Below, in pieces: positions 1 to 13,800 of a stretch of DNA of 42,662 nt; the stretch's first letter is position 1; each line of letters opens with the position of its first letter. The stretch is taken from NCBI GenBank assembly GCA_025059715.1, contig JANXCE010000018.1, positions 1 through 42,662 of the forward strand. The letters run 5' to 3'. The stretch is from Caldimicrobium sp. (lineage in GTDB: Bacteria; Desulfobacterota; Thermodesulfobacteria; Thermodesulfobacteriales; Thermodesulfobacteriaceae). The translations under genes were made by a program, and so were the position numbers. The notes under the pieces are model-generated. The model saw nothing but the letters and a program-made list of their open reading frames with translations, was not told the DNA's origin and searched no databases.

Positions 1-1015
1 CAAGGTAGTCACCTGTTGCTTCATAAGCCCTGGCTCTACAGCCTCCGCAAACTCTGATATATTCACATCTTCCGCATTTACCCTTGTAATTTTTAAAATC
101 CCTTAACTTGTTAAATATCTCTGAGCCCTCCCATACCTCTCTAAAGGAATTTTTCCGGAGATCTCCACAGGGTATCTCTAAGTATCCACAGGTTTGAACT
201 ACTCCTTGATGAGATATGAAGCAAAAGCCGGTTCCTGCAAGGCAACCTCTTGTAACTGCATCAAGACCAAAGGTTTCATAGGTTACTTCCTTTCCCTCCG
301 CTTTAGCCCTTTCCCGCAAAATTCTATAATAGTGAGGAGCACAAGTTGCCTTAAGATGAAGCCCCGATCTCTCTCTTTGCTCATAAAACCAGTGAAGAAG
401 GGCTTCATACTTTTCGGGAGAGAGCCCATCTTGCCCAAGATCTTTGCCCCTTCCTACAGGCACTAATAAGAATATGTGATGGGCCTCTGCTCCAAGATCC
501 TTTGCTAACTGATGGACCTTGGGTAACTCTTCTGCATTAACCCCTGTAATAGTGGTATTTATTTGAAAGGAAAGCCCCACCTCTCTTAGAATGTTGATAC
601 CTCTTAATGCCCCTTCAAAGGCTCCAGGCATCTTTCTGAAATCATCATGAGTTTTAGCCTCTGCCCCATCAAGACTAATACTAACCCTGGAAATGCCTAC
701 TCTCTTTAATTCTAAAGCAAGCTCTTTTGTAAGTAATGTGCCATTCGTTGCAAGAACGGGTTTCAACCCTAAGGTAGTTGCCCTTTGGGCTATCTCCAAA
801 AGGTCTTTGCGAAGTAATGGTTCTCCCCCAGTTAAAATAATGATAGGTTGTCCAACCTCCCTAATCTCCTCCAAGATCCGAAAAACCTCATCTGTAGTAA
901 GTTCTCCTTCATAGGTGCCCCTTGAGGCAGAGGCCCTACAATGGATACAATCAAGATTACAGGTCCGGGTAAGCTCCCAAGCTATAAGCCGAGGCACAAA
1001 ATTATTTGGCTTCAT
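1..1015 (-). CDS. ahbD: AhbD-type heme b synthase, radical SAM (3' end cut by window edge)
   Basis: A 338-residue open frame runs off the left edge, so the C-terminus is missing (family about 370-400 residues). Near residue 10 it reads RLIAWELTRTCNLDCIHC, the CX3CX2C site for the SAM-binding 4Fe-4S cluster in NirJ/AhbD proteins. Close to the cut end it has the SPASM-like auxiliary-cluster motif CGRCEYIRVCGGCRARAY. By family knowledge AhbD converts Fe-coproporphyrin III to heme b in the siroheme-dependent pathway of sulfate reducers. The short N-terminus and the RLIAWE signature favour AhbD/NirJ2 over AhbC/NirJ1. ATG at 1015 follows an AAGGAAG ribosome site and overlaps the MOSC gene by 14 nt, so it ends a co-transcribed group. 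MoaA-type or another SPASM function is less likely. Confidence 0.7.
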   Translation of the reverse strand, partial: MKPNNFVPRLIAWELTRTCNLDCIHCRASASRGTYEGELTTDEVFRILEEIREVGQPIIILTGGEPLLRKDLLEIAQRATTLGLKPVLATNGTLLTKELALELKRVGISRVSISLDGAEAKTHDDFRKMPGAFEGALRGINILREVGLSFQINTTITGVNAEELPKVHQLAKDLGAEAHHIFLLVPVGRGKDLGQDGLSPEKYEALLHWFYEQRERSGLHLKATCAPHYYRILRERAKAEGKEVTYETFGLDAVTRGCLAGTGFCFISHQGVVQTCGYLEIPCGDLRKNSFREVWEGSEIFNKLRDFKNYKGKCGRCEYIRVCGGCRARAYEATGDYL

Positions 1016-1460
1016 CTTTTCTTCCTTTAATAAGTTCTATTATATCCCCCACTTTTATTATACCTCCCTTTATAACCTTGGTAAAAACTCCTCTATTTCT
1101 CATTTCACATTTACCTACCCTCTCAAAAATAGCACATCCATGATGACACTTTTTTCCTATCTGGGTAACCTCAAATAGACACTCACCTGCTATAATTTTA
1201 TCCCCAACTTTAACTTGAGATAGGTCTAAGTCAGTGGTCACGTTTTCTGCTAACTCTCCATAGGCAAGAGGCCTTCCAATGAGATCTTTCATCCACTCTA
1301 AGGTATAGACATCAAGAAAACTTACCTGACGATGCCACGAACCAGCATGAGCATCTCCTTCAATGCCATAATTTTCAATCACTTTCACCTGAGAAACATT
1401 TTCTTTGGGCACTCCTTTCTCTCTACTGATTGAAAGGGCTATGACTTTCCCCCTTTTCAT
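1002..1460 (-). CDS. MOSC domain protein
   Basis: A 152-residue stand-alone MOSC domain. Family landmarks are the N-terminal strand KVIALSIS, the GIEGDAHAG motif near residue 33, and the conserved cysteine of KCHHGC near residue 105, followed by RGVFTKVIKGG. MOSC domains are the C-terminal part of molybdenum-cofactor sulfurases, and short bacterial versions are thought to move sulfur or bind molybdopterin; the substrate here is not visible. It overlaps the upstream FAH gene by ATGA and the downstream ahbD by 14 nt, indicating translational coupling. No other molybdenum-cofactor gene lies in the window, so the link to Moco is from family only. Confidence 0.85.
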   Translation of the reverse strand: MKRGKVIALSISREKGVPKENVSQVKVIENYGIEGDAHAGSWHRQVSFLDVYTLEWMKDLIGRPLAYGELAENVTTDLDLSQVKVGDKIIAGECLFEVTQIGKKCHHGCAIFERVGKCEMRNRGVFTKVIKGGIIKVGDIIELIKGRKDEAK

Positions 1461-2224
1461 AACCTTTCCCCTTCTAAGGATTCTACACTGTTTCTTAAGA
1501 CTCCTATGTGTTCGATCTCAACTTCCACTACATCTCCCGCCTTAAGAGGCCCAACTCCAGAAGGTGTTCCCGTAGCTATTACATCCCCTGGTAAAAGAGT
1601 CATTATCTGGGAAATGTAAAAAATGAGCTCTATCGGCTTAAATATCATCTGCTTAGTGTGCGAACTCTGAACTATTTTACCATTAAGTCTCGTCTCTATA
1701 CGCAAATTTTGGGGATCAATTCCCTTTACAATGAAAGGACCTATTGGGGCAAAGGTATTAAAGGACTTACTCCGAGTCCACTGAATGTCCCTGCGTTGAA
1801 GATCTCTTGCGGTGACATCATTAAAACAAGTATAACCAAGTATAGCCTTTTCTACCTCATCATAAGTATAGGGTCTATATAACTTTTGGCCTATCACTAC
1901 AGCCAGTTCTCCTTCATAATGAACCTCTTTACTTTCGGGTGGAAGAACTATACTCTCTTCAGGACCTATAACTGCAGTTGGGGGTTTAAGAAAAATCAAT
2001 GGTTCCTGCGGAAGAGCCATTTTCAATTCCTCCGCATGATCCCTATAGTTAAGACCTACACCAATAATTTTAGTGGGAATACAAGGTGCAAGTATTTTAA
2101 TATCCCTTAAAAACATCCTTTCCTTGGAAGTCCCATCTATACAAACAACCTCCTCTCCCAAGAGATATCCATAAAAAACTTCTTCTCCCCTTTTAAATCT
2201 TCCGATTTTAATTGGATAGGTCAT
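1457..2224 (-). CDS. fumarylacetoacetate hydrolase (FAH) family protein
   Basis: A 255-residue protein with a short N-terminal lid (about 1-55) and a complete FAH fold. HYEGELAVVIG supplies metal-binding acidic residues, DVTARDLQ follows, then FAPIGPFIV, and the C-terminal GDVIATGTPSGVG motif. Members hydrolyse or decarboxylate 2,4-diketo acids: acylpyruvases, oxaloacetate decarboxylases, hydroxyheptadienedioate isomerases. Oxaloacetate or acylpyruvate chemistry is the most usual for stand-alone enzymes of this length, but the substrate cannot be read from sequence. It lies 25 nt downstream of ferritin and is coupled through ATGA to the MOSC gene. Confidence 0.85.
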   Translation of the reverse strand: MTYPIKIGRFKRGEEVFYGYLLGEEVVCIDGTSKERMFLRDIKILAPCIPTKIIGVGLNYRDHAEELKMALPQEPLIFLKPPTAVIGPEESIVLPPESKEVHYEGELAVVIGQKLYRPYTYDEVEKAILGYTCFNDVTARDLQRRDIQWTRSKSFNTFAPIGPFIVKGIDPQNLRIETRLNGKIVQSSHTKQMIFKPIELIFYISQIMTLLPGDVIATGTPSGVGPLKAGDVVEVEIEHIGVLRNSVESLEGERL

Positions 2225-2249
2225 AGTTTGTTTTAAAATTATACCACAC

Positions 2250-2768
2250 TTAGACTTGAGTCATTAGTAAATTTAAGTCAAGGGGTCTTTGAGCAAGTTC
2301 ATTATCTAAATAGAAAAGTGCTTGAGGATCACCCTTTATTAGTTTTAGCTTGTTAAGAATGGCCTTAAAGGATGCCTCCTCCTCCACCTGTTCCTCCACA
2401 AACCACTGGAGAAAATTCTCGGTAGCATAATCTTCATGCTTTTTTGCTAAACTCATCAACTTGTTAATTCTGTCCGTTACCTCCTGTTCGTGTTTGTAAG
2501 CATGTTCAAAAACTGCCTCTGGGCTATCCCAGGTATATGGTGGTGCAGGGATTTCCTCTAATATAACCCTTCCATCTCTTTCAAAAATGTATTTGTAAAA
2601 CTTCATAGCATGCATGTATTCTTCCGCGGTTTGGGCCTTCATCCAGTGAGCAAATCCCTCTAATCCTTGATCTTCAAAATAGGCAGACATCGCTAAATAT
2701 AGATAACCAGAATATAATTCCCACTTCAACTGCTCGTTAAGCGCTTTCTCCAATTCCTGCTTTAACAT
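2250..2768 (-). CDS. ftnA: bacterial non-heme ferritin
   Basis: 172 residues, typical FtnA length. The four-helix diiron residues are in place: Glu in LKWELYSGYLY, the AEEYMHAMKF motif with Glu and His, Glu in HEQEVTDRI, and the QWFVEEQVEEE helix. It stores iron as a mineral core in the cytoplasm and consumes Fe(II) and peroxide. AAGGAGG sits 6 nt before the ATG, giving strong initiation, and a sigma-70-like promoter is visible upstream. In an anaerobe full of Fe-S and radical SAM enzymes an iron store and oxidant sink makes sense. Confidence 0.93.
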   Translation of the reverse strand: MLKQELEKALNEQLKWELYSGYLYLAMSAYFEDQGLEGFAHWMKAQTAEEYMHAMKFYKYIFERDGRVILEEIPAPPYTWDSPEAVFEHAYKHEQEVTDRINKLMSLAKKHEDYATENFLQWFVEEQVEEEASFKAILNKLKLIKGDPQALFYLDNELAQRPLDLNLLMTQV

Positions 2769-2802
2769 ATCTACCTCCTTTTAAAAATTTTAATTTAATA
2801 AA

Positions 2803-2830
2803 AATTTAAAACCGTAAGCAAAAATTTCAA
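2803..2830 (-). promoter_or_regulatory. candidate sigma-70 promoter for ferritin
   Basis: Read on the minus strand: -35 TTGAAA (2830-2825), 16-nt spacer, -10 TAAATT (2808-2803), giving a start near 2796 and a leader of about 28 nt containing AAGGAGG. Lies in the divergent ftnA/amrS spacer. Pattern match only; the region is very A+T-rich, so chance matches are likely. Confidence 0.4.
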
Positions 2831-2845
2831 GTTAATATTTTAATC

Positions 2846-2874
2846 TTGACTATCTGTTTTAAAAGTCTTAAATT
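2846..2874 (+). promoter_or_regulatory. candidate sigma-70 promoter for amrS
   Basis: -35 TTGACT (2846-2851), 17-nt spacer, -10 TAAATT (2869-2874). The predicted start is about 24 nt before the amrS ATG, with AAGGTAG as ribosome site. It is arranged back to back with the ferritin promoter. Confidence 0.45.
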
Positions 2875-2904
2875 GAAATATATTTTCTCTCTTAAGGTAG
2901 TCCC

Positions 2905-3921
2905 ATGAAATTGGCTTTACTTTATAAAACCTTAGAAGAAAACAAAGTTCGCTGTCATCTCTGTAATCACTACTGTATTATTCCACCAGGTAAGAGGGGG
3001 CTTTGTGGTGTTAGACAAAATGAAGAGGGAGTTCTTTATACCTTGGTATATGGAAAAGTTATTGCTCAGCATGTAGATCCCATCGAAAAAAAACCTCTCT
3101 ATCATTTCTTACCTGGAAGTTCTTCCTACTCTATTGCCACCATAGGTTGTAACTTTAGATGTTCCTTTTGTCAAAATTTTGAAATCTCGCAATACCCTCA
3201 TTTATATCCTCAGGATATCCCTGGAAGACCTCTAACCCCCAAGGACATCCTTAAGGCTACTTTACAATCAAACTCCAAAAGCATCTCCTATACATATACG
3301 GAGCCTACTGTATTTTTTGAATTTGCCTTAGATTGTGCCAAACTTGCGGTTAAAGAAGGCCTTAAAAATGTCTTTGTTTCAAATGGTTACATGACTAAGG
3401 AAGCCATTGAGCTGATTAAACCCTATCTCCACGGTATTAATGTAGATTTGAAGGCCTTTACTGAGGGGTTTTATCAAAGGTTTTGTAAGGCTAAGCTTAA
3501 ACCTGTTTTAGAAAACCTAAGGTATATAAAAGAATCTCAGATCTGGTTGGAGATAACCACCTTGATCATTCCCGGCGAAAATGACGATGAAGAGGAACTA
3601 AGAAACATAGCCAGATTTATTAGGGACGAGTTAGGGCCAGAAACTCCTTGGCATATTTCCCGATTTTACCCTCACTTTAAGATGCTTCATAAACCTTATA
3701 CTCCCATAGAGACCCTGCAAAAAGCCTATTTCATTGGTAAAGAGGAGGGACTTTATTACCTATACATTGGCAATGTTCCGGGAAATGAGACAGAAAATAC
3801 CTTTTGTCCTAAGTGTAATGCCCTTGTCATTGAAAGATATGGTTATGCGGTGATTAAGAATAATTTAAGAGAAGGCCTCTGCCCTCAGTGTAGCTTCAAA
3901 ATAGATGGGGTTTGGAGTTAA
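2905..3921 (+). CDS. amrS: AmmeMemoRadiSam system radical SAM enzyme AmrS
   Basis: 338 residues, matching AmrS (PflA-like, COG1180). An N-terminal CHLCNHYC zinc-ribbon-like motif precedes GKRGLCGVR. The radical SAM motif is GCNFRCSFCQN (CX3CX2C) near residue 81. The C-terminus carries CPKC ... CPQC and ends in the family-typical GVW. AmrS usually occurs with AmrA (AMMECR1) and AmrB (MEMO), neither of which is in this window; the reaction of the system is not established. The last 57 nt, encoding the C-terminal ribbon, lie antisense to the end of rlmN. Confidence 0.9.
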   Translation: MKLALLYKTLEENKVRCHLCNHYCIIPPGKRGLCGVRQNEEGVLYTLVYGKVIAQHVDPIEKKPLYHFLPGSSSYSIATIGCNFRCSFCQNFEISQYPHLYPQDIPGRPLTPKDILKATLQSNSKSISYTYTEPTVFFEFALDCAKLAVKEGLKNVFVSNGYMTKEAIELIKPYLHGINVDLKAFTEGFYQRFCKAKLKPVLENLRYIKESQIWLEITTLIIPGENDDEEELRNIARFIRDELGPETPWHISRFYPHFKMLHKPYTPIETLQKAYFIGKEEGLYYLYIGNVPGNETENTFCPKCNALVIERYGYAVIKNNLREGLCPQCSFKIDGVWS

Positions 3922-4968
3922 AAGCTCTCCTTCCAATCTTCTCCTTAATTGACCACATCCCGCACTGATCTTGACCCCTTTGCTTTTCCTGAGAGTGGTT
4001 AGCATTCCCTTTGAAAGTAAGTATCTTTGAAAATTATAAATAATCTCTTCACTGGGTCTCTCAAAGGGAATATCTGGATGAGGATTAAAGGGAATCAAAT
4101 TTATTTTAACGGGTAACCCTCGCAAAAGTCTATAGAGTTCCTCCGCCTCCCGAAGGGAATCATTCACATCCTTTATTAACAGATACTCAATGGTTATCCT
4201 TCCCTTTTTTACTCTGGGAAAGGTTTTTATGATTTCAATTAATTCAGAAAGGGAGTATTTTTTGGCTATGGGCATAAGTTGCCTTCGCAGTTCATCATTA
4301 GGTGCATGCAAAGAGAGAGCTAAGGCTGTGGGGAACTCCTTAGCTAAAGCCCTTAGTTCTCGCACTAAACCAACTGTTGAAACGGTAAGTCTTTTACGAG
4401 AAAAATTAAATCCCCTCTTGTCTTCAAGAATCTTAAGAACTTTTACTAAATTCTTATAGTTAGCTAAGGGTTCACCCATTCCCATAAATACGATATTTCG
4501 TAAAGGTAGAGATTCTCCTTTTAGTTTTAAAAATCTTTTAGCTATGACCACTTGGGCAAGAATTTCTCCTACGCTCAGATCTCGCTTAAATCCACTTTTG
4601 CCTGTCAGACAAAACTTACAACCAAAGGCACATCCAACTTGAGTAGATACACAAAGGGTATAGTGATCTCTTTCGGGGATTAGCACGCTCTCTATAATCT
4701 CTCCATCTTCAAGTCTAACAGCAAATTTTGTGGTGCCCTCATCATCGCTTTGAAGATCAACAACTGAGGGTAGGCTCAGATCGAAATGGTCTTCAAGCTT
4801 TAATCGCAAACTCTTCGGGATATCGGTCATCTCCATGAAAGATAGAGCCACTTTGCGGGTAAGCCATTGGTAAATCTGATCCCCCCGATAGGAGGGCTCT
4901 CCTAAGGAGGTTAAAAGGTCTCTGATCTCTTCTAAGGTATGTTCTCTAAGCTTAGTTCTAAAACTCAT
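3865..4968 (-). CDS. rlmN: 23S rRNA (adenine-C2)-methyltransferase RlmN
   Basis: 367 residues, full length. The N-terminal helical domain has YRGDQIYQWL. The radical SAM site is GCAFGCKFCLTG near residue 112, followed by the VFMGMGEPL motif, and the second catalytic cysteine lies in SAGCGQLR near residue 340. It methylates A2503 of 23S rRNA and A37 of some tRNAs. It overlaps serA by ATGA at its start. Its last 18 or so residues are encoded antisense to the AmrS C-terminal metal ribbon; a C-terminal tail after CGQLR is normal for the family, so the overlap does not imply truncation. Confidence 0.96.
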   Translation of the reverse strand: MSFRTKLREHTLEEIRDLLTSLGEPSYRGDQIYQWLTRKVALSFMEMTDIPKSLRLKLEDHFDLSLPSVVDLQSDDEGTTKFAVRLEDGEIIESVLIPERDHYTLCVSTQVGCAFGCKFCLTGKSGFKRDLSVGEILAQVVIAKRFLKLKGESLPLRNIVFMGMGEPLANYKNLVKVLKILEDKRGFNFSRKRLTVSTVGLVRELRALAKEFPTALALSLHAPNDELRRQLMPIAKKYSLSELIEIIKTFPRVKKGRITIEYLLIKDVNDSLREAEELYRLLRGLPVKINLIPFNPHPDIPFERPSEEIIYNFQRYLLSKGMLTTLRKSKGVKISAGCGQLRRRLEGELLTPNPIYFEATLRAEAFS

Positions 4969-6545
4969 AGTTCTAAGGGTTTTACTAAATAAACTGCTTC
5001 TTCATTTCTTAATTCCGCTAAGGCCTCAGGCGTGGGGGGTTGGTCTAAACTCAATAGGATTATATTTCTCCTTTTCATGGGATCTTGACCTACATGCATG
5101 CGCGATATGTTTAATTGATGTCTACCCAAAATGGTGCCGATCTTTCCAATAACCCCTGGTTTATCATCATTAAAAATATAGAGCATATATCCCTCAGGTA
5201 AAGCATCTAATCTAAATCCGTTAATGCGCACAATTCTTGGCTCTTTTTTACCAAAAAGAGTGCCCTCTACTAAGGTTTCACCATGAGTATGCTTTATCCT
5301 AAGACTTATAAGAGAGGTAAAATCTTCGGTTTCCTCAGTTTTTGCCTCAGTAATTTTGATATTTCTATCTTTGGCTCTAAAGAGGGCATTCACATAATTG
5401 ACATCTTCCTTGAGAAAGGGAGTTAGTAAACCTTTAACCAAGGACAGGGTTACTGGTTTAGTGTCAATCTTAGCTAATTCCCCTTTGTAGACTATTTCCA
5501 ACTCCTGAATAGCTCCCTCCGCAATTTGAGCGGATAGTAAGCCAATTTTTTCAGCCAGTTTTAAAACTGGTTGTAGAATCCGTAGGGCCTCTGCACTAAT
5601 GGAAGGAACATTCACTGCATTGCGCACCACTCCATGAATAAGATAATCTACCACTTGCTTTGCTATCTCAATCGCTACTACCCTTTGAGCTTCGATCGTA
5701 GAGGCTCCTAAATGAGGGGTTACAATTACATTTTCGAGCTTAATCAAAGGATGCTCCGGATCTGGTGGTTCTTTTTCAAAGACATCCAAGGCTGCTCCTG
5801 CTACTTTCCCTGAAATCAAAGCTCTATAAAGGGCCTCTTCATCGATGATACCTCCTCGGGCACAATTTATGATATAAACTCCCCTTTTCATCTTGGCAAA
5901 GGCGGCTTCATCAAGTAAGTGATAGGTCTCCTTGGTAAGTGGAGTGTGCAAAGTAATAAAATCCGCCCTACTATATAGTTCCTCTAAACTTACGAGCTCT
6001 ACCCCCATTTTGCTTGCCAAATCAGGCGAAACAAAGGGATCATAGGCAATAACCTGCATCTTTAAAGCCAGAGCCCTTTCCGCTACAATACTTCCTATTC
6101 GTCCTAATCCAATTATTCCCAAGACCTTTCCATTTAATTCTACCCCCATAAACTTTTTTCTCTCCCACTTTCCATCCTTTACCGAGTTGTTGGCTTGGGG
6201 AATTTTTCTTGCTAAGGCAAAAAGTAGAGCTAAGGTATGCTCCGCAGCAGATAAAGTATTTCCTCCAGGAACATTCATAACCACAATTCCCTTTTCATTG
6301 GCACTTTGAAGATCTACATTGTCAAGACCCGTTCCCGCTCTTCCAATTACCCTAAGATTCTTAGCCCTCTCAATTACCTCTTTGGTGACTTTAGTGCCAC
6401 TGCGAATTATAAGAGCTTCTACTTCTTCAATTTCCTTCATCAGTTCCTGTAAAGTTAAACCTGGTTTATAAATCACCTCAAGGCCAGCATTGCTGAGTAT
6501 CTCCAAGCCTTCTTCGGAAAGAGAATCAGAAATTAAAACTCTCAT
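4965..6545 (-). CDS. serA: D-3-phosphoglycerate dehydrogenase
   Basis: 526 residues, the long SerA type with substrate/NAD domains, an ASB (allosteric substrate-binding) domain and a C-terminal ACT domain. Visible landmarks are the Rossmann motif GLGRIG, catalytic Arg in NCARGGIIDE, Glu in DVFEKEPPD, His in VTPHLGAST and the ACT start YMLYIFNDDKPGVIG. It performs the first committed step of serine synthesis. I start it at the ATG at 6545 (MRVLISDSL), preceded by GGGGAGG at 9 nt; an in-frame ATG 36 nt upstream lacks such a site and would add a non-conserved tail. It is coupled to rlmN by ATGA and follows the NIL ferredoxin gene by 48 nt. Confidence 0.95.
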   Translation of the reverse strand: MRVLISDSLSEEGLEILSNAGLEVIYKPGLTLQELMKEIEEVEALIIRSGTKVTKEVIERAKNLRVIGRAGTGLDNVDLQSANEKGIVVMNVPGGNTLSAAEHTLALLFALARKIPQANNSVKDGKWERKKFMGVELNGKVLGIIGLGRIGSIVAERALALKMQVIAYDPFVSPDLASKMGVELVSLEELYSRADFITLHTPLTKETYHLLDEAAFAKMKRGVYIINCARGGIIDEEALYRALISGKVAGAALDVFEKEPPDPEHPLIKLENVIVTPHLGASTIEAQRVVAIEIAKQVVDYLIHGVVRNAVNVPSISAEALRILQPVLKLAEKIGLLSAQIAEGAIQELEIVYKGELAKIDTKPVTLSLVKGLLTPFLKEDVNYVNALFRAKDRNIKITEAKTEETEDFTSLISLRIKHTHGETLVEGTLFGKKEPRIVRINGFRLDALPEGYMLYIFNDDKPGVIGKIGTILGRHQLNISRMHVGQDPMKRRNIILLSLDQPPTPEALAELRNEEAVYLVKPLEL

Positions 6546-6593
6546 AAAGATTGGCCTCCCCTTGTTGTGTTGAGTCTCCAATCAATTTAAATT

Positions 6594-7016
6594 TTATAGG
6601 ACCTCACTATGGATGTGAATTTCCATAGCCTTTGTAATACAAGCGGAAACACAAAAGGCACAGGCAGTGCACCTATCGGGATCATAAATAACCCTAAAAG
6701 TTTTTCTATCCACAAACAGTGCACTAGTGGGACACACCGCCGTGCAAGCACCACAGTGGATGCACTTATCCTCATTTTTAAATACCTGTTGACCTAAGGG
6801 TTGAATCTCTACCCCCTCTTGTGTGAGAAAATTTAGGCCCTTTTCCAAATTTTCCCTTTCACCCATCAATTCAAGAATCATAATCCCCTCTTTACCGGGG
6901 GTTATAGTAGCTTTAAGAATATTAAAAATCAGATTAAAATCCTTGACTAAACGATAAACTATGGGCTTTTCCACTATATCAGGAGAAAACTTCAAAAATA
7001 ATCCCTTTTTCATCAT
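6594..7016 (-). CDS. NIL domain - 2x[4Fe-4S] ferredoxin protein
   Basis: 140 residues. An N-terminal NIL domain (about 1-75, the fold also found at the end of MetN) is followed by a ferredoxin domain with two complete cluster motifs, CIHCGACTAVCP and CTACAFCVSACI. By family knowledge NIL-ferredoxin proteins of the MA1822 type take part in homocysteine formation from aspartate semialdehyde and sulfide in methanogens, acting with a DUF39 (COG1900) protein; no DUF39 gene is in this window. GGAGG lies 6 nt before the ATG at 7016, and a second ATG follows directly. It sits 21 nt after the YcaO gene and 48 nt before serA. A role in sulfur transfer or assimilation is inference. Confidence 0.88.
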   Translation of the reverse strand: MMKKGLFLKFSPDIVEKPIVYRLVKDFNLIFNILKATITPGKEGIMILELMGERENLEKGLNFLTQEGVEIQPLGQQVFKNEDKCIHCGACTAVCPTSALFVDRKTFRVIYDPDRCTACAFCVSACITKAMEIHIHSEVL

Positions 7017-7037
7017 AATTATCCTCCACCTGAGGAC

Positions 7038-8777
7038 TTAGTTTTTACTGTGCAAAAAGGCTTCACAGTATTCAAGCCCCTTTTTAGCCATAACTAACTC
7101 AGGATCCAATGTTAAGGCTTTTACAAAGAAAACCTCTGCGGAAGATAGCATATTCAAATTTTTTAAGCAATATCCTATATTAGCATAGTCGATAGCAGAG
7201 GCGGGATTAAGCTCCGTTGCTCTCATAAAGGTCTTAAGCGCTAAAAAGTAATCACCCCTTTTATAAAGGGCTCTACCAAGTAAATTATAGACCTCCGCTA
7301 CTTCTTCAATGGACAGGGCTTTCTCACACATCTCTATACAGCTATCCCAGTGCCCCTTTCTAAAATAGGCATCCGCTAAGTTAGTGTAAAGGGCTACTTT
7401 ATCATTCTCAGGGGTAATGCACTGAAGGGCCCTTTCATAAGCTTTGATAGCCTCATCAAATTCCCCAAGCTCTTTTAACACATTTCCATAATATCCCCAA
7501 ACATAATATCTATGGTCCACTTCTTTTAAAATCTCTTCCAGAATCTCTTTATTTTTTTCGGGAGGTAAATATAACGGCATCACTCTACAAATTTGGAAAA
7601 GAAGTGGAATTCTTGTGCGCTCCCTAAAGAGTATACCAGGAATAATGGCATAAACCGCAGGCAGTTTAAGGCTCTCCTCTTCTATATCTATTAGGTAGAC
7701 TACCCAATCTCTCTCTTTTAAGGCTTGAGCAAGTAAAATTAATTCCTCCACATGATCACCCCTATATATATTTGGTAGAGCCTCTAAGGCTATTTCTCCC
7801 TCATGTCTTAAAACCAGGGAGGCCTCTTCAAGAGTTGCAAATTTGGGAAGTCCACTTTCTACGTATTTTCCCTCGGTATCAAAATCTCCAGCCAATTGAG
7901 CTACTTCAGTCAGGGCTCTAATCAGAGCTCTTTCGGGAGAAGTGCCAGTGCCTGCAGCGTAAACTATCTCACTTCTATGGGGAAAGGTTGAGGGATCAAG
8001 GGCCATCACTGCTATTGTAGGCACGGGCATCCCAAAGGTCATATCTCGAATCCAGAGCTTTATATCAAGCCTTTCAAAACAACTCAGAAGTTGTTCCGCT
8101 TCCCCTTTTATGGAAGTCCTGAGTATAGAAGGCATAGGCTTTTGACTTCTGATTGAGAGGGCATTGGTGTGTCTCTCTATTAATTCGCAGATGGCTTGAA
8201 CTGAAGCCTCAGGATAGGTATTTCCTCCAGCAGAACCATTGTATTCATAAAGGACCCAAAACCAATGAAAGGGAATGTATTTTGTCTCTCTGGTATACAC
8301 CTCAAGAGCTGGAACAAAGTAAAAGGGTATTTCTTTGAGGATTTCCAAGGCAAATTTCCTGAGGCTATCTTCCTCCTCATCTTCAACAGATTTGATAAAA
8401 ACATCCCAGGGCAGAGCCCTATCTCCAAGTTCCTTAAAGGAACTAAGGATACCGTGCTGAGGCACTCTCTGATAATAACTAAAAAGGGAAAAACGCTCTA
8501 CAAGCTCCACTAAGGCACTAGCTTGAGATAAAACGGGTGTTACTCCCTTACCCATTTGCTTGTAATTGCCAGTAATCTTTCTCCCATCTACATCATACAA
8601 ACTTAAATAGATGGGAATTCCCAGTCTACCCTTGTCTATTCTCTTTAAACCTTTGTATACTCTTAATCCACAAGAGCGCAGTCTTTCCTCTACCATTCTA
8701 ATGGTCTCTTCAGGGTAAAGGGCTTTATCCGCAATCACCTTAGGTGAAGGCTTCCAAAACTTTTCAAAATCCCTCAT
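7038..8777 (-). CDS. YcaO-like protein with C-terminal TPR repeats
   Basis: 579 residues. Residues about 1-400 form a YcaO domain: SALVELVERF near 85, QAICELIERH near 193 and AAGTGTSPERALIRALTEVAQ-like region near 275-292 carry the acidic ATP/Mg-binding residues typical of YcaO cyclodehydratases and thioamide synthetases. Residues about 425-570 contain four TPR units (GYYGNVLKELGEFDEAIKAY, TNLADAYFRKGHWDSCIEM and two more). YcaO enzymes activate a peptide amide with ATP for attack by Cys/Ser/Thr side chains or sulfide. There is no precursor peptide, E1-like partner or TfuA nearby, which argues against a RiPP cluster. GGGAGG precedes the ATG. It heads the operon with the NIL ferredoxin and is divergent from mnmA. 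Confidence 0.9.
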   Translation of the reverse strand: MRDFEKFWKPSPKVIADKALYPEETIRMVEERLRSCGLRVYKGLKRIDKGRLGIPIYLSLYDVDGRKITGNYKQMGKGVTPVLSQASALVELVERFSLFSYYQRVPQHGILSSFKELGDRALPWDVFIKSVEDEEEDSLRKFALEILKEIPFYFVPALEVYTRETKYIPFHWFWVLYEYNGSAGGNTYPEASVQAICELIERHTNALSIRSQKPMPSILRTSIKGEAEQLLSCFERLDIKLWIRDMTFGMPVPTIAVMALDPSTFPHRSEIVYAAGTGTSPERALIRALTEVAQLAGDFDTEGKYVESGLPKFATLEEASLVLRHEGEIALEALPNIYRGDHVEELILLAQALKERDWVVYLIDIEEESLKLPAVYAIIPGILFRERTRIPLLFQICRVMPLYLPPEKNKEILEEILKEVDHRYYVWGYYGNVLKELGEFDEAIKAYERALQCITPENDKVALYTNLADAYFRKGHWDSCIEMCEKALSIEEVAEVYNLLGRALYKRGDYFLALKTFMRATELNPASAIDYANIGYCLKNLNMLSSAEVFFVKALTLDPELVMAKKGLEYCEAFLHSKN

Positions 8778-8872
8778 AGGCCTCCCTTTAGTTGTAAGAT
8801 CTGAAATTGTGGAATAATTTAATTAATGTAATAGATTTTAAGAAAAACACAATCCTTTGTAGTAAGGAAGAT

Positions 8873-9919
8873 ATGGTTGACATGAAGAGGATTGCGATAG
8901 CCATGAGTGGAGGAGTAGATAGCTCCTATTCTGCCCTCCTTCTAAAGAAGACCTATGCACCAAAGGGAACCATAGTAGGAGTTAGTTTTTTACTCTTTGA
9001 GGAGCTTAGGCCCCAATTGGAGAAGGCAAGACAAATTGCGGAACATATAGGCATAGAACATCATATCATTGATTTAAGAGAGGATTTTCAGAGGGAGGTA
9101 AAGGACTATTTTCTAAGAAGTTATGCCCAGGGGCTTACCCCTAATCCCTGTGCCATCTGTAACCGGACAATCAAATTCGGTTTAGTTCCAAGGCTTATTC
9201 TGAAGAGTATAAGTGTTGATGGATATGCAACAGGGCATTATGTCTCAAAGGGCGAACACAAGGGCTATATTTTATTGAAGAGCTCCTCTAACAAAGCCAG
9301 AGACCAATCTTACTTTTTAGCCCTTATCGAGAGAGATCTAATTCCCTTGCTTCTTTTTCCTGTAGGCAATTTCTCCAATAAGGAGGAAGTTATTAAATTA
9401 GCGAAGGAGGAGGGATTAAATATCTTTCAATTCAAAGAATCACAGGATGTTTGCTTTCTACAGGGTAAAACCCTTCGAGAATATCTCAGAGAGTATCTGC
9501 CTGAAAGAGAAGGTGAGATCATATATAGAGGAAAAAGAGTCGGAACCCACATGGGCATTCATTTTTACACCTTAGGTCAAAGAAAAGGCCTAAGAATCCC
9601 CTTAGGTAGACCTCTATATATAGTAAGGATTGATGAAAGAGAAAATAAATTATACCTTGGAGATGAGCAGGAACTCCTGAGAGAAAGTTTTTATGTTAAG
9701 GATATAAATTTTCATCTGCCATTAGATAGATGGAACAGGGTCAGTGCCCAAATAAGATATAGAACTGAAAGGATTGTGATCTCGGATATAGTTCCAGAGG
9801 GTTCCCTTTGGAGAATAAAACTTGCAAAACCTACAAAGAGAATTACCCCTGGACAAATTTGTGCCTTCTACGAAGGAGACTATCTTTTAGGCGGAGGTAT
9901 AATTGCTAAAGATATTTAG
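8873..9919 (+). CDS. mnmA: tRNA-specific 2-thiouridylase MnmA
   Basis: 348 residues from the chosen start. The PP-loop SGGVDSS opens the protein; TPNPCAICN carries the first catalytic cysteine and ESQDVCFL the second, with the central and C-terminal beta-barrel domains complete. It makes 2-thiouridine at tRNA wobble U34. The start is uncertain: ATG 8873 has AAGGA ending 4 nt upstream; ATG 8882 (MKRIAIAMSGG) gives the family N-terminus but a longer spacing; extension to 8807 adds unconserved sequence. It is divergent from ycaO, and its last 14 nt overlap antisense the end of flgL. No cysteine desulfurase or Tus-relay gene is adjacent. Confidence 0.94.
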   Translation: MVDMKRIAIAMSGGVDSSYSALLLKKTYAPKGTIVGVSFLLFEELRPQLEKARQIAEHIGIEHHIIDLREDFQREVKDYFLRSYAQGLTPNPCAICNRTIKFGLVPRLILKSISVDGYATGHYVSKGEHKGYILLKSSSNKARDQSYFLALIERDLIPLLLFPVGNFSNKEEVIKLAKEEGLNIFQFKESQDVCFLQGKTLREYLREYLPEREGEIIYRGKRVGTHMGIHFYTLGQRKGLRIPLGRPLYIVRIDERENKLYLGDEQELLRESFYVKDINFHLPLDRWNRVSAQIRYRTERIVISDIVPEGSLWRIKLAKPTKRITPGQICAFYEGDYLLGGGIIAKDI

Positions 9920-10847
9920 CCAGATTCATATCGGAAAACATGGCAACCGCCCTAAGAGCTGCATCATAGGCAATACTTAGACTTTGGAGTTTGGTAGCAA
10001 GTTTAGCTAAATCGGCACTTTCTATCTGTCCCAGATTGCTTTCTATAGTTGCTTTAAAATCCTCATAGAGAATCTTTTTGGTCTCCAAATGGGCCATTTG
10101 AGCTCCGATTTTTCCTCTCTTTCCTGCTATATAGTTGTAAACTGCATCTAACTTTCCTATTATCTCTTGGATATTATACTGTTCAGTCTCATAATTAATT
10201 TCGTTGTTGGCAAGCAAGGTCCTTTTCAAACTTAAAAGGGCCTCAAAGATTCCTGAATCCATGAAAATCCTTTGTCCGCTTTCACCAAGGCTCATCTTCA
10301 TGTCTCGGTCATAACCAATTTCGAAGTCTTCCACTGACCCATGGTAAGTAATCCTTTCTATAATCTGACCGTCGGGCAGGGTCTCTCTTTCTAATCTAAA
10401 GGGGGCTTCTCCGGGTTTGTAACCTGTGGTTTTTTGACCGCCAAAAAGATATTTCTCTCCCAGTTGAGAATTAGCCAGCGCAAGGAGGCTCTTAAGGATA
10501 TGGTCAATTTCTTCGGCGGTAGCTTTGCGGGCATTTAGGTCTTGGTTAGCATTCGCTGACTGTAAGGCAAGAATCTTTGCTCGAGAAATTAAATCCTCCA
10601 CATTCATTAAAGTAGCTTCTTGAGCCTTTAAAAAGGCATATCCCTCATCTATAGCTCTCATGAAGCGTTCCATACGAGCAATACCTTGTTTATAATTCAA
10701 AGCCACTACCGCCGACGGCGGATCATCAGAGGGACGAAGAAAGTTCCTCCCCGAGGAAATTTTCAGCTGGGAGGTATTGATCTCAGAGGAAAGTCTTTCC
10801 AGATCAGCAAGAAAGGCTCCAAATTTAGTGTTCATACCTATTCTCAT
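9906..10847 (-). CDS. flgL: flagellar hook-associated protein 3 FlgL
   Basis: 313 residues. The flagellin-like N-terminal helix has LSSEINTSQLKISSGRNFLRPSDDP spread over residues 17-41, and the C-terminus has the matching coiled coil ending near AVAMFSDMNLAKYL. It forms the second hook-filament junction ring, exported through the flagellar type III apparatus. It is the last gene of the flagellar operon, 15 nt after flgK, and is convergent with mnmA with a 14-nt overlap. Confidence 0.93.
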   Translation of the reverse strand: MRIGMNTKFGAFLADLERLSSEINTSQLKISSGRNFLRPSDDPPSAVVALNYKQGIARMERFMRAIDEGYAFLKAQEATLMNVEDLISRAKILALQSANANQDLNARKATAEEIDHILKSLLALANSQLGEKYLFGGQKTTGYKPGEAPFRLERETLPDGQIIERITYHGSVEDFEIGYDRDMKMSLGESGQRIFMDSGIFEALLSLKRTLLANNEINYETEQYNIQEIIGKLDAVYNYIAGKRGKIGAQMAHLETKKILYEDFKATIESNLGQIESADLAKLATKLQSLSIAYDAALRAVAMFSDMNLAKYL

Positions 10848-10862
10848 AGGGCCTCACCTCAA

Positions 10863-13800
10863 TTACCTCTTGGCAGTAATTAATGCTTCAAACATGTCTT
10901 CTACTGTGGAAAGAATCTTAGCAGTGGCAGTGAAGGCTTGTTGATACTTTATCAGATTTGCCATCTCTTCATCTAAGGAGACCCCTGAAATACTATCCTT
11001 AATAGCGGAAAGCTGTCTTAAAAGATCTTGTAAAAAGGTCTTACTTTCATTCACTGCTTTAGTAGCTGTGCCTACTTCCCCGGTTATTGAAGCATAGTAA
11101 TTTTCCAGATTAGATAAATTTAAGGCCTCTCTGGTTTCTAAGGCAGAGTCCGCAATAGCTTGGGCTATCCTGTTATCTCCCCTTTTTAATTCATAGGGCT
11201 TTAATCTGTGGATTAACCCCTCAGAGGCCCTCTCTTTCCGAGAAAGTTTAGCTAAAAGGAAGGAGATGAAATTTTGACTTTGACCATCGCTCTCCATGCT
11301 AAAATACTGAAAGTTCCCATCTTTGAGATTAATTTTAAGTCTTCCCCAGGGGTCAAAGGAAGCCTCTATATCTAAGATGCCATTTCCATTCAGGTCAAGA
11401 CCATTTAACCAGGTAAGAATATTATTTAAGGTGGGATTATTGAAAGAAAAGGAAGTAGTAAGGGAATTACCTTCTGGGGTATAGAGAGTTAGAGTTATAG
11501 TTTGAGAGCCAAAGCTAAGATTTGGAGAAGGCACAGGATAATCACTCAAGTAGAAGTATTGATTACTTCTCTGATTATATCGCAAGTAATCCTTAGTGAG
11601 TTTAACTTCAATGAGAGGAAGGGAGTCAAAATTACTTTCTGGCTGTGGCCGTGTATCCTCAAGCACAAAACTTTTTGTTTTATAAAGTCCAGTAGTCTCA
11701 ATGATAAGCTTTCCCTCTCTATCCAGTCGAGCAGATAGGGCAAAGGGTGCATTTTCCACACTGTTTATGGTTCTAAGCACTTGAAAGAGAGAGCCACCGC
11801 TATAAAGCTCAATCCTAAAAGGATCTATTACTCCATCCTCACTCTCCTTGGTATCAAGGGCTCTTCCCTTTTCATCAAAGAGATAAGCAGAGATTTCACC
11901 TAATTTGAGAGCCTCAACTCCCGTTTGCGTCCTGATTAGATTCCAGGTTCCTTCATAGGGGCTATTGCCATCCTCCTCAATCTCAATAACAAAGTAGTTT
12001 GCACCAGAGGGTGCCCCTACCTCGGACCTATCAAGCCAAATGTAGAAATTATCGCCAAGCATCTGGGCCCTAAGTCCACTTACGCTGTCGAAATTAGTGA
12101 TTAAACCTTCTAAATTACTTGAGGGTGCGACCAGGCTTGAGGCAACTAAATTTCCTTGAGAGTCAAAAAACTTAACTCTATAGGAGGTTGAGGTAGAGGG
12201 ATCAATAGTGCTCTTTCCTAAATAGAGGGTAGGCCTCACCAAGGGCTCAAGTCCTGAAAGATAGGAGATTTCTTTAGCCCCTTGCCATCTTAAGGAAGGA
12301 ACTAAAATGTTTTGCTCCTTTAAAAAGGTGACAAAACTGTCACTACTTAAGGGATTTGCACCAACATAGCGCTCCCCTATCTCAAAGCCAAAAACCTTGC
12401 TCTGGTTAGGCTCCAATCGCAAGACCATCCTCTGAGATTCATCAAGATAGGCCCTGAAAAAGGGTAGGTGGTTAAGTTTTCTTAAAATATCTCCCAGGGT
12501 GTCAAAGGTATCCGCGGGATCGTTGGGATCATCATAATCTATTGGTATCTCGTAGGCTTTTAAAGTCTCATTCCACATTACAAGGGGATTTAAACCTGTT
12601 CCATTGTAATTTACCTCAAAGAAGACCGCTTCAGCAGGGGCTCTGCTCGTCACTAACTCCAACCTCAAAATTCCCCTTTCATAATAAGCCCTTATTCCAC
12701 CTTCTCCATTTAAGATTTCTGGAAACTCTTTAAAGGATGTGCCTGCCCTAATTATTAAGGGACCTCCGGTAGGATTCCCCTGGGCATCCTTAAAGGTGAT
12801 AATTAGATCACCATCTATGGCATTAGTAGTGGTTAAACCTTCGTATATAGATAGAGGAGGGTAGGGGAAAACCTCTCCTCTCTCATCCACTGGCCGCACA
12901 TAGAGCCTATCTATTTGAAAATTAATGTCTGTATTGAAAAGGGGATGCGAACTTCTAAAGCTTCCAAAGAAGGCTTCACTACTTCTTAAGGCATAAACAT
13001 CCATCTTTCCAGAAGCAATAAGTTCTGGTTTTCTGACAAGGAGGGGATTTACTTGAAACTCGGCGGGATCCAATCCCACGAAGAAAAGATTTATTCCTGT
13101 GGAGAGGAGAATTCCTGAGGTGTCATTGGAAAAGGCATAAGCCCAGCCCTCTTTTGCCTGAAACACAAGCTTTCCTCCCCTTACTATGACTCTAATTTGG
13201 TAGTTAGAGCCCGTCTCATAACCTGCCTCGGAAAGGGCTCGATTAATCTGATTAGCCAAATCCTCTATAGTTGAGTCCTCGTGAAGATGGAGATCTACCC
13301 TCACCGGGTTAAGTTGACCCTTATCATTTCTAACCCAAATATAAAAAAAGCCAGACCTATTGAGTTCTAAAAAATAGGGCAGTTCCTTGATATAACGAGT
13401 AGCCTGATAGGCCCCCTCCAGTTCCCCCTTAAAGAACTCTAAACCTACTCCTTGAGTGTGGAGCTCATTAACCGCCTTTATAAGTTCCTCGCCGAATAGC
13501 TTTAGTTTTCCAGCTAAATTTAGCTCTAAGACCCTTCGTTGATAGGCGGGATCATCAAAGGTGCCCCAACTTAGCTGAGGGGGTGCGGAAAGGATTTGAA
13601 ATTCAAGTCTTCCCGAGCCTCTAAAGGCATCTTCTATAAATAGTCTTCCCTCTTTAAGGTAAGCTCTAACGGTATAACTATACGCCCTTTCAATTTCATT
13701 CAAAAATTCTCTTAGAGTTTTATCTCCAGTGATAGTGAAGTTTCCCTGAACTTCCCTGCCAAAGTGGTCTCTTCCCTGAAAAACAATGGTGCCTGTGGAG

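Follow-up and report, generated by a model that had tools for sequence, protein, structure and literature searches.

A YcaO–TPR protein encoded in a Caldimicrobium genome and its link to the Dsr system of Desulfobacterota

The stretch of DNA analyzed here (the window) comprises the 42,662 nucleotides of contig JANXCE010000018.1 of Caldimicrobium sp. (assembly GCA_025059715.1), a thermophile with a 1.84-Mb genome from the same family as Thermodesulfobacterium. On its minus strand, positions 7038..8777 encode a protein of 579 residues, termed YcaO–TPR, in which a YcaO amide-activating domain (residues ~18–390) is followed by C-terminal tetratricopeptide repeat (TPR) helices (~391–576). The gene starting 21 nt downstream (6594..7016, minus strand) encodes a 140-residue NIL-domain 2×[4Fe–4S] ferredoxin (NIL-Fd) of the MA1822/DvMF_0262 kind (PMC5764234). 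It is followed on the same strand by serA for phosphoglycerate dehydrogenase (4965..6545; start 6545 likely) and rlmN (3865..4968). On the plus strand, mnmA for the tRNA 2-thiouridine(34) synthase (8885..9919; start 8885 likely), recognized by an NCBIfam equivalog model, diverges from ycaO-TPR, with 107 nt between the two gene starts. This arrangement, including the four C-terminal TPR units, had been described in an earlier note made from the DNA alone and was confirmed by open reading frames (ORFs) and domain searches. That note took YcaO–TPR and NIL-Fd for a sulfur-transfer pair; we find that the link of YcaO–TPR to dissimilatory sulfite reduction and dsrC is stronger and wider than its link to NIL-Fd.

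YcaO–TPR is the sole YcaO-domain match of the window genome. The YcaO domain (PF02624) lies at residues 75–382 and covers profile positions 1–324 of 325 with 183.4 bits (1e-54; cut-off 25.7), and the four TPR stretches lie at residues ~427–560 (PF00515, 2e-23). YcaO enzymes use ATP for the activation of backbone amides. The ATP/Mg-binding motif Sx6-7Ex3Qx3ExxER, the definition of which is quoted in PMC7774982, is found at residues 182–202 (SAGGNTYPEASVQAICELIER; approximately 8145..8234, minus strand), and 84 of 86 homologues share it, with Ser or Pro at the first position. The active-site Glu, Gln and Arg are invariant in all 86, contrary to the suspicion that the ATP-binding residues might prove non-conserved upon alignment. 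Given this invariance, YcaO–TPR is very probably an active enzyme.

An AlphaFold2 model of YcaO–TPR built from 15 homologues (mean pLDDT 90, pTM 0.87) has the archaeal McrA-thioamidating YcaOs as its nearest solved folds (6peu, Z 37.8; 6cib, Z 33.9), and the profile match to MJ1094 reaches E=1.4e-43. The next kind of match is E. coli YcaO (4q86, Z 30.2 over 439 residues, 6.1 Å). The protein scores below the models of three known types, namely TIGR03266 for thioamidation of the McrA glycine (92.8 bits vs a cut-off of 365), NF040716 for the uL16-type YcaO of E. coli (44.2 bits over a partial match vs 700) and TIGR03604 for the SagD type (72.6 bits vs 219.25). Its isoelectric point (pI) of 5.41, with 5.0–5.9 among relatives, does not share the strongly acidic value of the uL16-type YcaO (about 4.4); on model score and pI, an identity as uL16-type YcaO was rejected. 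A PxPxP C-terminus is present in none of the 86 homologues. As already remarked in the earlier note, neither a cysteine desulfurase nor TfuA occurs among the window ORFs read, and TfuA is also absent from the ORFs of the neighborhoods read, the whole genome having been searched for neither. Together, the intact active site, a type other than that acting on ribosomally synthesized and post-translationally modified peptides (RiPPs), the protein-thioamidating nearest relatives and the sulfide-producing lineage support the former reading of this YcaO as a sulfide-using amide activator. By fold and active site it is a putative protein thioamidase.

To place the protein, 395 genomes of Desulfobacterota were searched for YcaO–TPR (profile A1), NIL-Fd, dsrA and HcyBio/DUF39, and the hits were cross-tabulated as raw genome counts, which include shared ancestry. 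Strong matches to YcaO–TPR occur in 147 genomes, nearly all spanning the full 578-position profile. Among these carriers, 143 possess dsrA, compared with 47 of the 248 non-carriers (phi 0.76); four genomes hold YcaO–TPR only and 201 hold neither. Of the four, two are 62% and 76% complete. This distribution is best explained if YcaO–TPR belongs to the Dsr system of Desulfobacterota. Separately, two genomes reported as 98% complete (G241 and G283; family f35, genus g156) encode a canonical two-cysteine DsrC, with no dsrA and no YcaO–TPR match.

DsrC is a sulfur carrier that bears its load on a flexible C-terminal arm and, in dissimilatory sulfate reduction, acts as the hub that carries the substrate. 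In a clustering without prior of 880 ORFs from the surroundings of 88 ycaO-TPR loci, dsrC emerged as the most frequent neighbor (11 loci, one of which, L045, holds a divergent paralogue). When canonical dsrC was sought in the 147 carriers, it was present in all but a handful, and in 26 genomes of nine families it lies 88–410 bp from ycaO-TPR on the same strand; beyond these, the two are separated by one gene in G030. The position of dsrC is downstream in eight families (f31, f42, f50, f57, f63, f67, f80 and f85) and upstream in f18, and the existence of two gene orders suggests that adjacency itself is favored. Random placement would yield such adjacency in about 2 per 10,000 genomes, a figure that overstates the significance because the families concerned are related. 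Our literature search found no paper mentioning both DsrC and YcaO. Neither the linkage to dsrC nor the confinement of the TPR form, within the phylum, to genomes with dsr had been described in PMC7774982.

Several further arrangements of these genes were observed. In a Desulfovibrio-like genome, 100% complete, with dsrA undetected, ycaO-TPR is directly followed by dsrC (G326:C24:13577-15787). In family f20 (L045 6068-6421 = G057:C3:205103; also G094, G129 and G184), a divergent DsrC paralogue of 44–45% identity, with the arm FPTTSERAICKIAGLPKPTGCI in L045, is encoded ~3 kb from ycaO-TPR, and the canonical dsrC lies elsewhere in those genomes. Two Thermodesulfobacterium-like genomes (L231 3440-5721; L232 3186-5458) encode a second, shorter YcaO of 480–485 residues alongside dsrC and a ComEA-like gene, and against the McrA-type model the L232 protein reaches 173 bits; in G015 and G021, of Thermodesulfobacterium type, one small gene separates dsrC from this shorter YcaO. 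All five genomes of family f40 possess this shorter type.

The C-terminal arm of DsrC reads GPGKGACKM, with Gly at position 90, in all 120 genomes with YcaO–TPR that were examined, whereas position 90 is Ala in 34 of 40 genomes without it. Within f40, Gly90 is found in G112, which carries YcaO–TPR, and in G144, and Ala in G077 and G172, which lack YcaO–TPR; dsrC was not found in G222. The Gly/Ala state in this family follows the presence of YcaO–TPR and not that of the shorter YcaO. Across 20 genomes, none of the 52 DsrA columns that differ in f40 separates carriers from non-carriers, and only one of 34 DsrB columns does so, being gappy and N-terminal. DsrA and DsrB were therefore rejected as substrates, as they offer no site comparable to Gly90 of DsrC.

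We propose, with a probability of roughly 0.4, that YcaO–TPR is an ATP- and sulfide-dependent thioamidase of DsrC within the Dsr system. In this putative mechanism, YcaO–TPR would phosphorylate a backbone amide of DsrC with ATP, and sulfide, abundant in these cells, would replace the amide oxygen to give a thioamide in or near the C-terminal arm. The prime candidate site would be the Gly of ...GPG-K-GACKM..., namely Gly90 in the DsrC of the window genome, and the TPRs may serve dimerization, docking of DsrC, or both. NIL-Fd would work with the HcyBio/DUF39 protein encoded elsewhere in the genome. The narrower version, in which the modified residue of sulfate reducers is this conserved Gly (GPG-K-GAC) and its thioamidation tunes the sulfur-carrying arm in sulfite reduction, is slightly more tentative still.

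A number of observations weigh against this proposal. The co-occurrence with dsrA partly reflects shared ancestry, and most carriers, including the window genome (dsrC on contig C18), show no adjacency of ycaO and dsrC. Where dsrC lies downstream, a TTGACA/TATAGT-like promoter is found in the gap at several loci (L067–L106); as it sits just upstream of dsrC, the two genes need not be co-transcribed, and dsrC is probably transcribed strongly from its own promoter even beside ycaO. Gly90 is kept in six genomes without YcaO–TPR, on the DsrC tree this residue changes ~2 times as against 7 changes counted for YcaO, and other DsrC columns separate the two groups equally well. The correlation is thus neither independent nor significant, serving as a lead and not as a test, and with ~2 evolutionary events only we rejected it as proof of a modification site. 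DsrC of the Desulfovibrio type, bearing the GPGKGACKM arm, is present in four Protein Data Bank (PDB) entries (2v4j, 2xsj, 3or1 and 3or2), and we know of no thioamide reported in any of them, although the thioamide of uL16 likewise went unnoticed for long. DsrC could also be a partner or sulfur donor rather than a substrate. Furthermore, deletion of DVU2210 alone, which encodes a YcaO-like TPR protein of Desulfovibrio vulgaris Hildenborough with no function assigned, leaves sulfate respiration normal and gives denser growth in fermentation (PMC7774982).

The last observation also favors a different substrate. YcaO–TPR might act in the Dsr or sulfide economy and thioamidate a protein other than DsrC, be it a uL16-like ribosomal protein, another member of the Dsr complex or some other protein, with dsrC placed nearby through shared regulation. 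We consider this rather unlikely, although E. coli YcaO, which also bears TPRs, thioamidates uL16 (PMC13063428), and the adjacency of dsrC to ycaO-TPR is confined to about one carrier in five. With a universal substrate such as uL16, the near-restriction of YcaO–TPR to genomes with dsrA is left without an explanation, and the low uL16-type score and the pI of the family speak against uL16 in particular, just as the DsrA and DsrB columns speak against another Dsr substrate.

It appears improbable that DsrC, a TusE-like protein, is instead the sulfur donor or docking partner, its persulfide passing sulfur to a YcaO-activated amide of another protein in the role of TfuA or ThiS. Proteins of the DsrC/TusE type are indeed sulfur relays, TusE feeding MnmA (PMC3397948), many families show linkage of ycaO-TPR with dsrC and the order of the window shows it with mnmA, and the neighborhoods read contain no TfuA. 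However, sulfate reducers have plenty of free sulfide, and the purified E. coli enzyme thioamidates with sulfide alone in vitro (PMC13063428). A separate sulfur donor is therefore not needed. E. coli also possesses TusE, and no link between its YcaO and TusE is known to us.

Even less credit is due to the model of the earlier note, which sees in YcaO and NIL-Fd a dedicated thiolation pair acting on a protein, on tRNA or on the precursor of an amino acid. In its favor, ycaO is directly followed by the NIL-Fd gene in 29 of the 30 genomes of the order, the exception being the Thermosulfurimonas dismutans locus (L022), and NIL domains occur in sulfur-incorporation contexts. One such context lies in the window genome itself (G000:C6; L053 42-2875), where a PALP-type enzyme, a ThiS-like carrier, a 79-residue stand-alone NIL protein and a ThiF–rhodanese protein are clustered, an example of a NIL domain in the context of a thiocarboxylate sulfur carrier. 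Against the pair, the genome has no NIL-ferredoxin other than NIL-Fd, with NIL (PF09383) at residues 8–72 and two [4Fe–4S] motifs, and HcyBio/DUF39 is present on another contig. Throughout the phylum set, 252 genomes have both NIL-Fd and HcyBio/DUF39, and 14 and 8 have one of them (phi 0.875), whereas NIL-Fd occurs without YcaO–TPR in 138 genomes and YcaO–TPR without NIL-Fd in 19. Among genomes with dsrA, NIL-Fd is no predictor of YcaO–TPR (odds ratio 0.83, p=1), and beyond the order, the inspected genomes do not have the two genes as neighbors. A sulfate reducer was shown to need DUF39, the NIL/ferredoxin protein and COG2122 to make homocysteine (PMC5764234). Given these genetics, the single copy and the co-occurrence with HcyBio, the economical reading of NIL-Fd is a methionine-pathway protein, a homocysteine-synthesis component of the MA1822/DvMF_0262 kind. 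The reading of the earlier note was partly right with regard to a sulfide-using amide activator, and probably wrong in naming NIL-Fd as the partner. A TGA flagged within NIL-Fd of several genomes was rejected as selenocysteine, since this TGA is the terminal stop codon.

Scarcely credible is a role of YcaO–TPR in forming an azoline, amidine or other modification of a RiPP-like small peptide: most YcaOs outside archaea and E. coli do act on RiPPs (background in PMC13063428), yet the SagD-type score and the missing PxPxP end argue against it, clustering of the neighbors at the 88 loci bears out the absence of a conserved small precursor or an E1/ocin-ThiF partner, and the strongly conserved sequence with usually one ortholog per genome is unlike RiPP YcaOs.

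Within the order, the neighborhood is conserved, as opposed to the doubt once raised about adjacency in related genomes. In addition to the ycaO/NIL-Fd succession, mnmA adjoins in 23 of the 30 genomes, being divergent from ycaO in 14 and the third gene of a ycaO–NIL-Fd–mnmA run in nine. The survey of co-occurrence that had been suggested gives linkage with NIL-Fd and mnmA within the order; phylum-wide, NIL-Fd follows DUF39. In the order member G030 and in T. dismutans, the NIL-Fd gene is located away from ycaO. The serA gene lies beside NIL-Fd in the genus of the window (G001, G003 and G005) and not in the other genera examined, and rlmN follows serA in this genus only, among the loci examined. 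As sulfide-using functions, the three genes ycaO, NIL-Fd and mnmA presumably came to lie side by side in the order of the window. Comparison of window positions 1–13000 with the congener G003 (L032) shows the nucleotide identity rising from 77% to 86% near 7700–7835, within ycaO, with protein identities of 96% for MnmA, 93% for FlgL and 73% for YcaO; the jump suggests recombination with a breakpoint inside ycaO.

If DsrC is indeed the substrate, its thioamide would constitute the third known protein-thioamide system, beside the two known YcaO protein substrates McrA and uL16, both of which are thioamidated (PMC13063428), and one of the central proteins of the sulfur cycle would prove to bear a modification that had escaped notice. 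It would then be necessary to revisit the models of DsrAB–DsrC chemistry, the DsrC structures and the molybdate phenotype reported for DVU2210. With DsrC in the role of a partner only, the orphan DVU2210 family still gains a specific home in the Dsr system and not in general metabolism.

Among known systems, DVU2210 shares the YcaO and TPR architecture, the ATP motif and the phylum with the window protein, and its published motif SAGNTEEESILQGSCELVER matches the family (PMC7774982), the likeness being drawn from architecture and published motif. A point mutation in this motif or deletion of the gene, combined with deletion of sat, confers resistance to molybdate; a role in molybdate activation was proposed and YcaO homologues were stressed as widespread, and neither a restriction to Dsr genomes nor a linkage to dsrC was reported (PMC7774982). 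Mutations in DVU2210 likewise arose in cocultures that had evolved in the absence of sulfate (PMC7774982, PMC8319347), which counts in favor of the proposal on DsrC. The McrA-thioamidating archaeal YcaOs (MJ1094; TIGR03266; PDB 6pe3 and 6peu) are closest to the catalytic domain in fold and sequence (25% identity); in contrast to YcaO–TPR, they have no TPR domain, and YcaO–TPR falls below the cut-off of their model. E. coli YcaO (PDB 4q84–4q86; PMC13063428) is a near whole-length structural match that shares the C-terminal TPR-type domain and is likewise stand-alone, without TfuA and non-RiPP, but YcaO–TPR has only 18–21% identity to it, differs in model score and pI, and co-occurs with dsr. 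NIL-Fd resembles the MA1822/DvMF_0262 ferredoxin of the DUF39 pathway (PMC5764234) in its NIL domain and two [4Fe–4S] motifs, in its single copy and in the presence of HcyBio/DUF39 in the genome; unlike that free-standing gene, in the order of the window it adjoins ycaO.

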